Position numbers and translations under genes: made by a program. This document shows positions 11,990-17,900 of a stretch of DNA of 27,750 nucleotides, piece by piece. Origin of the DNA: Parvularia atlantis (lineage: Eukaryota > Opisthokonta > Rotosphaerida). Below the pieces are notes generated by a model. The model was not told the origin of the DNA. It ran no database searches and saw only the letters and a program-made list of their open reading frames with translations. Each line of letters starts with the position of its first letter. Positions within the stretch are counted from its first letter, which is position 1. The stretch covers positions 1 through 27,750 of the forward strand of contig CALSCO010001988.1 in the NCBI GenBank assembly GCA_943704415.1. The letters are read 5' to 3'.

Positions 11990-14900
11990 TCACGCCTGCT
12001 GCTTGCTAAAGACCTGCAGGAGCAGGGCCATGCGCACGTAGAGCCCGTTCCGCATCTGGCGGAAGTAGGCCGCGCGCGGGTCGCGGTCGACCGACGGGTC
12101 AATCTCGTCCACACGCGGAAGCGGGTGCATCACAATCATGTTGTCCTGAACGCGTGCGCGCAAGCGTGTCAGTCACGCAGACCGCCCTGCCGCACGGTCG
12201 GTGCGCACCTTGGCACGCGCCAGCGTCGCTGCCGTGACGCGGTGCGCCGTGCGGACGCGCTCGTACTCGGCCAGGTCCGTGAAGCGCTCCTTCTGCACAC
12301 GTGTCACGTAGAGCACGTCCGTGTAGCTGATCACGTCGCTCAGCGTCTCGTGCTCGGTCTGCTGCACGTTGGCGGCCGCAAGCTCGTCCTGCGGCGACGC
12401 AACGTGAGCAATAGGGTCAGCCAGTGCGTGTGCGCGCGTGAGTTTGTGCTGCACACCTTGATCTCGCGCGGCATCGCCAGCTCGGGCACGCTCACGTACG
12501 CCAGGCGGATCTTGTACAGGGCCAGCAGCCGCACGAGCGAGTGCACCGTGCGCCCTGCGAGCGCGCGCGTCTCAGCACGACACGCACACGTACACGCGCC
12601 ACCGGCCGCCGCACCGTTCTTCAGGTCGCCGACCAGCGTCACGTGTAGCCCATTGACGCTGCCGAGCTCCTCGCGCATCGTGAAGATGTCGAGCAGCGCC
12701 TGCGCGGGTTGCGTCGGTCGCGCACTCAGGTCCGCGGCAGCGCATTGCGCACCTGCGTCGGGTGCTCGCCCGTGCCGTCGCCCGCGTTGATGATCGACAC
12801 CGGCGAGACCTTGGCCGCCTCCTGCGCCGAGCCGACGCCCGGGTGGCGCAGGATGATCACGTCGACGTAGCTGCCCACGGTGCGGACTGCGAGCGGCCGC
12901 GCGCGCGTCAGCGCGGCGGCGTCACGTCAGGCGCGATGCACTGGTGTCCTGCAGCGTCTCGCCCTTGGCGATCGACGACGTTGTGTCGCTCACGTTGACC
13001 ACCTGCCCGCCCAGGCGCTTCATCGCCGAGTCGAATGAGGCCGATGTGCGCGTCGAGGGCTCGTAGAACAGCGTGCACATGATCTTGCCGCGGAGCGAGT
13101 CAAGCACCGTGTCACGCTCCAGCGACGTTTTCATCTCCTGCGCCAGGGCGAAGAGCGAGTGCAGGTCGTTGCGCTGCAGCTGTTTGACCGAGAGCAGGTG
13201 CCGGAGCATGTGCTTGGTGCCGCCCGCCTGCTGCAGCCGCACGGCACGCTCGCGCTCCAGCAGCGACTGCGCCTCGTTCGCGCGCTTGGTCTGCGCCGCC
13301 GAGGCCGCTGTTACCGGTGTCAAGCTCTGGCCGGCGCCTCCAGCAGACGGGGCAGCGGCTGCCGAAGCCGGCATGACCAGCAGCGGCACCGAGCCCTGGC
13401 CCGCCTGCAACTGCATCGCCGGTGACGATAGCAAAAAGTCGGCCGACTGCCCGCGGTCCGCGCGCTGGCCCAGCATCGGCGCCGGCGCAGACGACCCGTT
13501 GCTGAGCGACGCGAGCGCGGGCGACGGCATGGGCATCATCACGGAGCCCGTCGAGCCCGGTGCGGAGCTGAACGACGCTCGCCCAGGCGACGGAACGCCG
13601 TCGAGCGCATGCACGCCCTTGGGCGTCTCGTTCGGCTGCACCGACGTCTGCGGCGTCGGCTGCGCGGCGGCGGCGGGAGCACTGGCTGCCGCGCTCTTGA
13701 CGTGCGCGGCGTCGTCGGCGAAGCGAACGGTCTCCGGGCGGTCCTGCACAAGCTCGGCGCCGCGCACGATTGGCTCAACCGTGCGGCCGTCCTGGTACAC
13801 GGTCTTGCCGTTGAAGGTAACCTTGGTCACGACGCCTTTGTGCGCGCGCAAGCGTGAGCACGCGATGACCGCGACATGCGGCCGCGCACCCTTGAGCGTC
13901 TGCGAGCCCGTGATCGACGCCGACGCGCCGTTCTTGCGGAAGTCGCGGTCGATCTCGACCTCGATCGTCGTCGACGCGCCGCCGGCGCTGGTCGGCTGCG
14001 GCAGGCCAAACAGGCGCATCGGCGCGTCGTACAGGCGCTCCTGCAGCGCGCATCAGCGCTCGTGCTTCTGCCACACGCGTGCGCGCGCCGACAAACCTTG
14101 ACGTCCGCGAGCGTGAGCTTGCCCTGCAACACTGCCGTGAGCAGCAGCGGCAGGGCCTCGCGCAGCCGCTGGCAGACGGCATCGGTGGCCTGCTCGGCGG
14201 CGGCGTCATCGCCGTTCGTCGCGAGCAACTCGCGGCCGGCCACGCTGAAGCAGTCGATGCTCGGGAGGCTGCACGCGAGACGCATCGCGTCATTGGGCAG
14301 CGCATCGCGGTCATCCGCCGTGCACGGACCTCTTCCACAGGTGCTCCTGGTCCTCCGCGGTCAGCTGCAGGTCGGCCGGCACGTTCAGCCCCTTGTAGCT
14401 CGCCGCGGTCAGGAACAGCGAGTGCACGGAGACGTCGCAGGTGACCGGCATGCCCTTGGTCTTGGCCGCCTGGATCAGCTTCATGTCCTCCTTCCTGCGA
14501 AGGCGGCAAGATGTGAATCACGTCATGGCAAAGCGCACAAGAGTCGGCAGCACGCACTTGGTCACGCAGCCAACGTGCACGCGGCGGTCGTTGATGTTGG
14601 CCAGCAGCAGGATCGCGGCGAGGTCGGTGCCGCTCGCGCAGGTGATGAGCGGCGTTGACTGCGGCCACGCGCTGATGACCTGCGCGGGGTGGCAGAGCGT
14701 GAGCGCACTGCGCGCAGCGTAGCCCGGTGCACCGCACCTTGGCCGCCTGCGAGACCGACAGGTTGGGGGACAACTTGAGCGCAAAGATGCCGGGGCTTGC
14801 TTGGCGCAGCGACGCGTGCGACGACTTGCCCTCGTCGTCAAACTCGACCAGCGCCATCGAGGCAAAGTTGCACAGGGCGCGGTCCGCGGCCGCCGCGCGC

Positions 14901-17900
14901 CACGTCGCAAGCAACTCGGCCGTGGTGCAGCCGGCGTCGATCGCGAGCATCGTGAACCCGCCGGCGAGCGCGGCCTCGGTCACGTGCGCCACCTGCTGGC
15001 CGTTCGGCGGCATGACGACGTGAATGTCGATCAGGCCCGGAAGGACCACCGTCTCGTAGTTGCTCTGCATAACGCAGGCGCGCGAGCGTGTGAGCCGCAC
15101 CCAGCCGCAGCGGTCGCGCCGTACCTTGAAGTCGTGAGGGCGCACGGGCAGGTGGTCCGCACGCGCGACCGCCTCCACAAACAGCTGCCGCGCTCCGTGT
15201 CAGCGCCCACGCACGCGCACAACCAGGCGGGCCACGCGACGAACCTTGGCGCACTTGATGTTCGTGATGAGCGGGATTGAAAAGTCGACGGCCATGCGCC
15301 GCGTGAGGTAGCCGCGCGAGACGTAGTTGGCCGGGCGGCGGTAGTTGTTCATCGACGGCAGGTTGATGTACAGGTCGATCTGCGCGCGTGCGCCGACACA
15401 GTCAGCGACCGACTGCCGCGCGCTGCACGGTCGACAACAACATGCCTGCTTGGAGGCCAGCGCGTTCGTGAGCGAGTACTCCTGCTTCTTGACGCTGTCC
15501 TCCGAGTCGCCCTCAAACACGTCCAGGAACGTCACGGGCACATCGCTCGCCGCCAGGAAGTCGGCCGTGCCTGGCGTCGCGAACAGCTGGCGAGCGCGCA
15601 GGCGTCAGCTCTTATGCACGCGAAACGTCATGCGCGCGCACCTTGAAGCCCATCTTCACCAAGCGCAGCGCCGACGGCAGAAACTCGTTCTTCTCCTTGA
15701 ACGACCCGACCGAGAGCAGCACGTTGCCGTTGCGCCGCGGCAGCTTGAAGCCAGTCGACACGAGCGCCTTGATGTACGCCTCGTACTTGTCCTTGCCAAA
15801 GCACGCGACCTCGCCCGTCGACGCCATCTCGACGCCGAGCACGGGGTCCGCCCTGGTCGCGGCACCGCGCTCGCGTCAGCCCGGCCGCACGGTGCCGCCA
15901 GCGCCGCGAGACGCACCCGGACAGACGCGAGAACGAGAACTGCGGCACCTTCACCGCGACATAGTTGACGTTGACGGGCGGGTACGGCGTGATCGGCCAG
16001 TCGAGCTGCGCGCCGATGCTCAGCACCGACTAACCAAGTGACCACCGCGTGCCACGCCACCATCACACGCGTGGCCATCTGGATCAGGTCCACGCCCATC
16101 ACACGCGAGTCGAACGGGAACGAGCGCGAGGCGCGCAGGTTGCACTCGATGACCTTGCGACGCTGTCAGCAGCGGCGGCGCAGGCGACCCGGCAGCGCGC
16201 GCACCTTGATCTCCTGGTTCTTGGCGATGAACTGGATGTTGAACGGGCCGGTGACGTTGAGTGCGTCGGCAATGAGGCGCGTCGCGTGCTCGATCTTGCG
16301 CACGGTCTCGACGTCGAGGTCCTGCGGCGGCAGCTGCGCGCGCGTCCGTTGAGCATGCGCAACCGCCCGCCTCGCGAGCGCGCACGCACCACGAGCGTCG
16401 CATCGCCCGAGTGCACGCCCGCGTTCTCCACGTGCTCCGAGATGACGTGCATGACCAGCTGGCCCTTGCTCGCCACGGCGTCCATCTCGATCTCCTTGGC
16501 CTCCTGGATGTACTTGGAGATGACGACAGGGTGCTCTGCAACGCCGCAGTGTAAGCCTTATGCCCCCGCGCGCGGTCGTGCGTGTTGACGCGCACCAGGC
16601 GACACCGCCGCGGCCTTGTTCAGGTACGCTTCGAGGTCCTCCTGGCTGAACACGACATTCATCGCCGCGCCCGAGAGCACGTACGACGGCCGCACGAGCA
16701 CGGGGTAGCCGACCTTGGGCGCGCGCGTTTGTGTCGGCAGCCCACGAGCGGGGGCACGGCCAACGGCGACGCACCGTGCTGCAGAAGACGTTCGCCTCCT
16801 CAATGCTCGTCAGCTCCTTCCACTGCGGCTGGTTCACGCCGATGCGGTCGAGCAGGCGCGAGAACTTGTACCTGTTCTCGGCCGTATCGATCATCTCGGG
16901 CGAGGTGCCGTAGATGCGCACGTTCTGCATGCACGCGGTGCCGAGTCAGCGCGCACGCACGCGGCGACAGGGACGTGCCTGGCGGTGCAGCTGCAGCGCG
17001 ATGTTGTTCGGCGTCTGGCCGCCCATGGACAGGACGATGCCCGACGACTGCTCGAGCTCGTAGATGTCCATGACCGTCTCGAGCGTGATGTTCTCAAAGT
17101 AGAGCTGCCGCCCGCACAGCGTGTCAGCAATGGTCGCACAGCACTCCGCCCGCGCGTGCCTTGTCGGCCTCGTCGTAGTCGGTCGAGACGGTCTCCGGGT
17201 TGTAGTTGACCATGATCGTCTTGACGCCCTCGGCGCGGATCGTGCGGATCGCACGCACGGCGCACCAGTCAAACTCGACCGAGCTGCCATTGCGACATCA
17301 GTGCGAACACACGCTGCAAACTGACGCGCCGCACCTGCCGATGCGGTACACGCCCGAACCGAGCACCATCACACCGCTGTCCTTGAAGTCGACGTCGTGC
17401 TCCGTGCCGTTGTACGTCATGTACAGGTAGTTGGTGAACGCGGGGAACTCGGCGGCGACTGCGGCGGGCGTGGGCGCGAGCGGTCAGGGTCGCACACTGG
17501 GCAGCGCGCGCATACACGCACCCGTGTCGATCTGCTTCACAAACGGGTACAGCTTGGCGTCCACACGCATGCTGCGCACGGCGAGCGCCGACGACGAGAT
17601 GCAGCGCGCGATCTGCGCCGAGCGGCTCGGTCAGCAAAGGGGACGCAAAGAGCGCCAGAGGGGCGCACGCACCTGCGAATCGGCAAAGCCCGTCTGCTTG
17701 GCCTGGCGCAGCAGCGGCAGCGTGAGCGTCTGCTGCGTGTGCGAGCTGCGGCGGCGACCGCGCATCAGCACAAGAAAGCGCCGACGACAACGGGCTGTGC
17801 GCGCACCTCAGGTGGCGGTCGAGCTTGACGATGTTCAGCAGCTTGTTAAGGAACCACTTGTCAATCTTGGTCAGCTCCCAGATGCGGTCGACCTGGCGCG

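Follow-up and report, generated by a model that had tools for sequence, protein, structure and literature searches.

CAD-like proteins of fungi (yeast Ura2; Chaetomium thermophilum, structures 5nnl and 5nnn) contain a dihydroorotase (DHO)-like domain without a metal site, and a stand-alone dihydroorotase (DHOase) is encoded elsewhere. According to PMC9863657, the inactive fungal domain still homodimerises like the human one. In animal (human) CAD the same fusion and domain order are found with an active DHO possessing all ligands. An inactive DHO homologue is likewise kept with the class A ATCase of Pseudomonas, retained there because the ATCase requires it (PMC7053772); this pseudo-DHO is bacterial and forms a separate chain, and is likened to the present case by description, with no kinship implied. 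The CAD-type gene analysed here shares this domain order and has 93 of 268 DHO residues identical to human CAD, but its DHO-like domain lacks most of the ligands of the active human one. It resembles the fungal proteins in the replacements R1475P and E1637D, in its position in the tree and in being accompanied by a separate DHOase; unlike them, it retains H1471, carries other residues at the remaining lost ligands and is split into ~45 exons. The Chaetomium thermophilum structures served for the fungal comparison, yeast Ura2 being left out of the alignment.

The window, i.e. the whole analysed stretch of 27,750 nucleotides, contains one open CAD-type gene on the minus strand (~21404-11990; Table 1) according to a codon-usage and splice-site model. 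The raw model comprised 49 exons, of which the first was an artefact, and three introns placed within the linker exon were unneeded and probably artefacts too, leaving ~45 coding exons; the initial annotation had given 44. Eight Pfam families were recognised (PF00988, PF00117, PF25596, PF02786, PF02787, PF02142, PF02729 and PF00185), with the GATase, CPSase, MGS and ATCase parts exceeding their cut-offs, and the DHO stretch matched no Pfam family at E 0.001. Other CAD active-site motifs (30 protein letters) were spotted by eye in the model translation. When compared with PDB, the ATCase domain scored 347.7 bits against 5nnn and 337.1 bits against human 5g1n. Gene model, Pfam matches and open frame together place the GATase-CPSase-DHO-ATCase fusion in a single gene. 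Elsewhere in the window, Pfam analysis of large reading frames within 3-7224 identified no family (only a sub-threshold AAA match), an Rfam scan of the window gave no matches, and a viral contig scan matched 20 stretches, none of them a relative.

Table 1. Features of the CAD-like gene and its DHO-like domain (window positions; residue numbers as in human CAD)
Feature	Coordinates	Strand	Description
CAD-like gene	11990..21404	-	GATase - CPSase (two ATP-grasp halves) - MGS - DHO-like - linker - ATCase
DHO-like exon 1	14738..15064	-	First part of barrel (motif letters, 15); second His of HxH to V, R1475 to P
DHO-like exon 2	14558..14679	-	H1590 to C (ITCASG), H1614 to C (VGCVTK); dimer-face residues
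DHO-like exon 3	14330..14494	-	Motif letters, 12; E1637D, P1640V and H1642S in common with fungal 5nnl
DHO-like exon 4	14097..14268	-	FSVAGREL in place of DHAPH; LPLLLTAV retained
DHO-like exon 5	13890..14040	-	C-terminal part
DHO-like domain end (~13776), long Pro/Ala/Ser-rich linker, ATCase start	12942..13835	-	Read as one exon, open frame
ATCase domain	11990..13212 (start approximate)	-	Motif letters, 12, and HPLPR; PDB and Pfam matches

The DHO-like domain extends from 15064 to ~13776 and is open across six exons; the end points given in the initial annotation, 15064 and 13836, coincide with exon borders of the gene model. Once spliced, these exons (Table 1) contained no stops, as opposed to 16 and 5 stops in the other two phases, and had a GC3 of 0.92, the five introns between them being of GT..AG type and 54–63 bases long. 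The sites at which ligands were lost (HVV, CAS, GCV and FSVAG) are all exon-internal, the nearest to a border being the Cys at H1614, four codons away. Splicing that restores the His/Asp ligands, the outcome that would have overturned the earlier interpretation, is therefore unlikely.

Alignment to human CAD (with residue roles as given in PMC9856072) showed that one of six zinc ligands is retained, namely H1471, while H1473 is replaced by V, H1590 and H1614 by C, and D1686 by A. K1556 was not retained in the alignment used, in which the surrounding loop aligns ambiguously, and a lysine might still be present in this carbamylated-lysine loop. None of the eight malate-contacting residues (R1475, N1505, T1562, F1563, R1661, H1690, P1702, G1703) is kept; D1686 was counted among the ligands and not among these eight. 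The complete zinc site with substrate residues by which an animal-type domain was defined is accordingly absent. The initial annotation had described a CAD protein with an inactivated DHO domain kept in frame, having HVV for HxH, two Cys for His and no DHAPH, and these residue assignments proved correct. The best match among 50 PDB sequences was 5nnl, 'Inactive dihydroorotase-like domain' (131.3 bits), with human CAD entries reaching at most 105.1 bits; together with the lost ligands, this agrees with the suggestion of an inactive, Ura2-like domain.

A separate dihydroorotase gene had also been predicted, and a search of the same genome located one of type II on contig C601 (35533 to ~36787), encoding 344 aa in the 5 exons modelled. 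Its product matches the yeast type II dihydroorotase 6l0a nearly end to end (312.4 bits; next match 224.2) with all metal ligands present (HVH, VKSYP, NLHGE, LEHAT, FGSDSAPH), but differs from it in having at least 5 exons, with the placement of the N-terminus approximate. A type I DHO model searched against the genome produced only five weak matches (E up to 1), among which was the CAD-like gene's own DHO domain. Pieces of DHODH were found on contig C426.

Taken on sequence, the gene very probably encodes a Ura2-type CAD with an inert DHO scaffold, complemented by a separate type II DHOase, in which the loss of DHO is one with that of fungi. The GATase, CPSase and ATCase parts would produce carbamoyl aspartate, which would be cyclised by the type II enzyme (URA4/PyrC type) of the separate C601 gene. 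The DHO-like domain itself would perform no chemistry and most likely acts as a dimer-forming scaffold joining ATCase trimers in a large particle. The dimer face is fairly conservative: among its seven hydrogen-bonding positions, V1571 and E1619 are retained, L1605 and R1630 show conservative substitutions (to I and K) and Q1607 is replaced by D, whereas at Q1594/T1595 this domain and the fungal one both carry T/D. The homodimer described for the inactive fungal domain (PMC9863657) supports such a structural role.

Trees were calculated under a mixture model from the DHO-like domain, fungal 5nnl, human CAD and nine bacterial (Chloroflexi) DHOs as outgroup, using either all 342 columns or 192 safely aligned ones. 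The DHO-like domain and 5nnl, the one fungal sequence included, formed a single clade with support of 99/99 (342 columns) and 100/99 (192 columns), and the other two pairings were rejected (AU p = 0.020 and 0.005; 0.002 and 0.002 on safe columns). Shared new residues, defined as present in two of the three eukaryotes but in neither the third nor any of the nine bacteria, numbered 23 for window and fungus, 2 for window and human and 5 for fungus and human (16, 2 and 3 on safe columns), and permutation yielded a mean of 4.4 (maximum 14; on safe columns 3.2, maximum 10). The replacements R1475P (at the substrate-binding Arg), E1637D, P1640V and H1642S are identical in the DHO-like domain and 5nnl. 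A weaker signal came from the ATCase domain, for which a single archaeal sequence was the outgroup: residues shared by window and fungus numbered 26, by window and human 14 and by fungus and human 21. The branches of the two inactive domains are 3.16 and 1.95 changes per column long (all columns), and long-branch attraction between them, these being the only two inactive domains compared, is possible despite the mixture model.

The initial annotation had offered two alternatives, a loss shared with fungi and an independent one. We read the loss as the fungal loss, a single shared event, and a DHO-domain tree, the kind of check proposed earlier, places the window's domain with fungal 5nnl rather than with human CAD or the bacterial outgroup. 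Residues common to fungus and window attest to shared ancestry of the domain and do not by themselves speak for its inactivity at that time; R1475P, E1637D and H1642S, common to both, point to a common ancestor that was already inactive. Under the alternative, the domain would have been active in the ancestor shared with fungi and have decayed separately. This would agree with the divergence at conserved columns: of the 88 that do not vary among 10 active enzymes, 61 have changed in window and/or fungus, 26 of them differently in both and 25 in one only, with 10 changed alike (two of these being gaps). It would also agree with the phrase 'active or inactive DHO' used of fungal proteins in PMC6022934, by which fungi may differ among themselves in this respect. 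However, the four identical replacements, the excess of shared new residues (23, versus 2 and 5 for the other pairings), and a replacement enzyme nearest to yeast DHOase among solved structures make separate decay improbable. Continued DHO activity through an altered metal site has some appeal, given that two His ligands are now Cys, H1471 remains and Cys can bind zinc, but it is highly improbable when D1686, R1475, N1505 and R1661 are lost as well and the genome encodes a stand-alone enzyme whose metal ligands are complete. Even less credible is a splicing or assembly artefact: the introns are known from modelling only, but the open frame, GT..AG borders, GC3 of 0.92, domain-wide alignment to 5nnl and exon-internal ligand sites all stand against it.

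With a single shared loss, DHO function would have been lost before the split of this organism and Ascomycota, and the identity of the host determines how old that makes it: if the host is a nucleariid, the DHO loss is older than Fungi, and if it is an early-diverging fungus, the finding is ordinary. The genome contains the opisthokont EF-1A insert and a LYS2-like gene, recovered as colinear pieces along positions 294–1341 of 1390. Exon-by-exon searches of this intron-rich genome gave no match to chitin synthase 1, chitin synthase 2 or the flagellar gene IFT46; no prokaryotic control matched in one of the chitin synthase searches or in that for IFT46, so that these two negatives fall short of absence, and 4 of 14 controls matched in the other chitin synthase search. 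A pattern search for SSU rRNA allowing up to 3 mismatches returned no matches. Gene content leads us to place the host, with fair probability, among the nucleariids. An early-diverging fungus, whose gene would be an ordinary fungal Ura2 with no bearing on timing before Fungi, seems rather unlikely; the LYS2-like gene, the EF-1A insert and the clade with the fungal domain would fit it, but the weakly controlled searches left chitin synthases 1 and 2 and IFT46 unmatched.

On the nucleariid placement, we lean towards the view that DHOase replacement by a bacterial-type stand-alone enzyme and decay of the domain to a scaffold, maintained from then on purely for its structure, predate the nucleariid/Fungi split and mark all Holomycota. 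The origin of Fungi was dated in 2024 to ~929 million years (PMC11426530). In a literature search from which most subscription papers fell outside scope, nothing was found linking dihydroorotase with Fonticula, the sole mention of dihydroorotase with Holomycota in the accessible text was as a size standard, and the main text of PMC10406608 contained neither 'dihydroorotase' nor 'pyrimidine'. If the host is indeed a nucleariid, a textbook fungal trait moves back before Fungi, and an R1475P CAD combined with a stand-alone type II enzyme becomes a qualitative marker of the Holomycota branch at the divergence of animals and fungi. The gene carries a fused enzyme domain that has very probably lost its chemistry yet has been retained for very long, presumably for structure, and provides, beside Dikarya, a second natural experiment on which CAD surfaces are under structural constraint.

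Pfam searches of the predicted CAD gene in the window (GC content 66–70%) detected the GATase domain, the CPSase small and large chain domains, MGS and both halves of ATCase, and no Pfam family was matched in its dihydroorotase (DHO) part at an E value of 0.001. The ATCase/OTCase family PF00185 had a single match in the 16.25 Mb genome, located within this gene. The gene model printed 49 exons, the first of which was an artefact; three introns in the Pro/Ala/Ser linker were superfluous, since the frame is open across that linker. The corrected number is therefore about 45, so the 44 coding exons of the initial annotation hold approximately rather than exactly. 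In at least three of its modelled introns (19571, 16978 and 15445, minus strand), the donor site apparently starts with GC instead of GT.

Features located in the window and on contig C181 of the same genome
Feature	Location	Strand	Basis
CAD gene	window, about 21404 to 11990	minus	codon-usage and splice-site model
Very large reading frames with Gln-rich repeat stretch	window, 1-7950	minus	weak sub-threshold Pfam AAA match only
Eukaryotic-type dimethylarginine dimethylaminohydrolase gene	window, about 9000-10288	plus	PF19420, 174.2 bits
Protein kinase gene with leucine-rich-like repeats	window, 10300-11950	minus	by eye
Kelch-repeat protein	window, 23037-24299	plus	Kelch_6, 84.3 bits; membrane helix near C-terminus by eye
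Protein kinase gene	window, 24440-27500	minus	by eye; Pfam kinase 25.2 bits, weak, below cut-off
LYS2-like alpha-aminoadipate reductase gene	G000:C181:3361-7588	minus	15 colinear pieces, positions 294-1341 of 1390

The reading frame of the DHO-like domain was open over six exons (no stops, against 16 and 5 in the other phases), joined across five GT..AG introns of 54–63 bases. The best of 50 listed PDB matches was 5nnl_A (131.3 bits, ‘Inactive dihydroorotase-like domain’), which we take to be from Chaetomium thermophilum; human CAD entries scored 101.3–105.1 bits. At the human zinc ligands H1471, H1473, carbamylated K1556, H1590, H1614 and D1686 (passages of PMC9856072), the window has H, V, a residue other than K in the alignment used, C, C and A, as the reported loss of ligands had it; all eight malate contacts of human DHO (R1475, N1505, T1562, F1563, R1661, H1690, P1702, G1703) are also changed in the alignment to human CAD, K1556 and T1562 carrying little weight in an ambiguously aligned stretch (window ALKLSPNL). 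The lost-ligand domain is real and well explained, and the CAD protein is of the Ura2 kind.

The separate dihydroorotase predicted on these grounds was located on another contig, C601. The type II model TIGR00856 matched one genomic locus, C601:35685-36780, where three separate pieces scored 170.7, 72.1 and 25.7 bits. None of them reached the curated cut-off for the whole protein (292.95), an expected outcome where introns interrupt a gene. The 344-aa protein (five exons joined by script, N-terminus not settled) aligned best to 6l0a, the yeast enzyme according to passages of PMC9856072 (312.4 bits over its residues 11-359; next 5vgm, 224.2 bits), and carried identical residues at all six yeast ligands, given as H14, H16, K98, H137, H180 and D258 in PMC8659124. 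The fusion protein would make carbamoyl aspartate, with cyclisation left to the C601 enzyme. DHODH, the next step, was found in four pieces on contig C426, one with an internal stop that may be an intron.

Scanning the genomes of bacteria and archaea yielded 286 relatives, of which 80 were kept, the best from Chloroflexi. Nine of the 80, all bacterial, served as tree outgroup and were taken as active because all six zinc ligands were kept in 9/9. In a mixture-model tree, in which the window and fungal branches are both long and one fungal sequence was used, the window domain grouped with 5nnl (support 99/99; AU test against the two other pairings, p = 0.020 and 0.005). With 192 safely aligned columns, support was 100/99 and both alternatives had p = 0.002. 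Residues common to two eukaryotes and absent from the third and the nine bacteria numbered 23 for window and fungus, 2 for window and human and 5 for fungus and human (16, 2 and 3 in safe columns); permutation gave a mean of 4.4 (maximum 14) and, for the safe columns, 3.2 (maximum 10). Safe changes common to window and fungus include R1475P, Q1594T, T1595D, E1637D (presumably at a third-zinc ligand), P1640V and H1642S. ATCase, with one archaeal outgroup, pointed the same way more weakly (26, 14 and 21 common residues, respectively). The common residues show that the window and fungal DHO domains have one branch in common after the split from animals.

This branch would already have been inactive, judging from functional positions, above all R1475P, and from the shared type of replacement enzyme. 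Among 88 columns invariant in 10 enzymes taken as active, 27 were kept in both domains and 10 changed identically (two as gaps; of the other eight, T1562 sits in an ambiguous loop). A further 26 had changed differently in the two, another 13 had changed in the fungus only and another 12 in the window only; erosion therefore continued separately after the loss.

The dimer face contrasts with the active site, although seven positions are few. At V1571, Q1594, T1595, L1605, Q1607, E1619 and R1630, which bond across the human dimer (PMC9856072), the window reads V, T, D, I, D, E, K and the fungus V, T, D, L, N, D, K. Passages of PMC9863657 describe the Chaetomium DHO-like crystal structure (naming 5NNN as Chaetomium ATC) and report that the inactive domain of fungi, which may have a structural function, assembles into a homodimer resembling that of human DHO. 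The domain would most likely be retained as a dimer scaffold.

The genome encodes the EF-1A insert FKGWKKLDKKGAEVKGVTL, which we take to be an opisthokont marker. None of the LYS2-like pieces was above the whole-protein cut-off; the family by itself is weak evidence, since 12/14 prokaryotic controls matched it (below cut-off), and it is the colinear order that counts. Neither chitin synthase PF01644 nor IFT46 PF12317 had a match in the genome, and with zero prokaryotic controls matched their absence is not established; chitin synthase PF03142 was likewise unmatched, with 4/14 controls matched. Nucleariids are described in passages of PMC6299283 as free-living, phagotrophic and chitin-lacking, and the host is probably one of them.

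In fungi, a CAD with inactive DHO alongside a separate enzyme is textbook knowledge (passages of PMC9863657, PMC4581275 and PMC8659124), with ‘active or inactive DHO’ the wording of PMC6022934; among the papers searched, none was found that treats this combination in nucleariids. What makes a Ura2-type CAD of interest here is its host and the date that the host would imply for the loss. PMC11426530, in which Nucleariida are the sister group of Fungi, places the origin of Fungi near 929 million years.

Anaerolineae/Chloroflexi dihydroorotases (L017-L024, L027) were the top-ranking bacterial matches to the window query. Identity to human CAD DHO was 176/280 residues for L021 and 154/281 for L017, with only these bacteria compared with human, and 93/268 for the window; the closeness of these two Chloroflexi enzymes to the human domain may be relevant to where the CAD domain came from.
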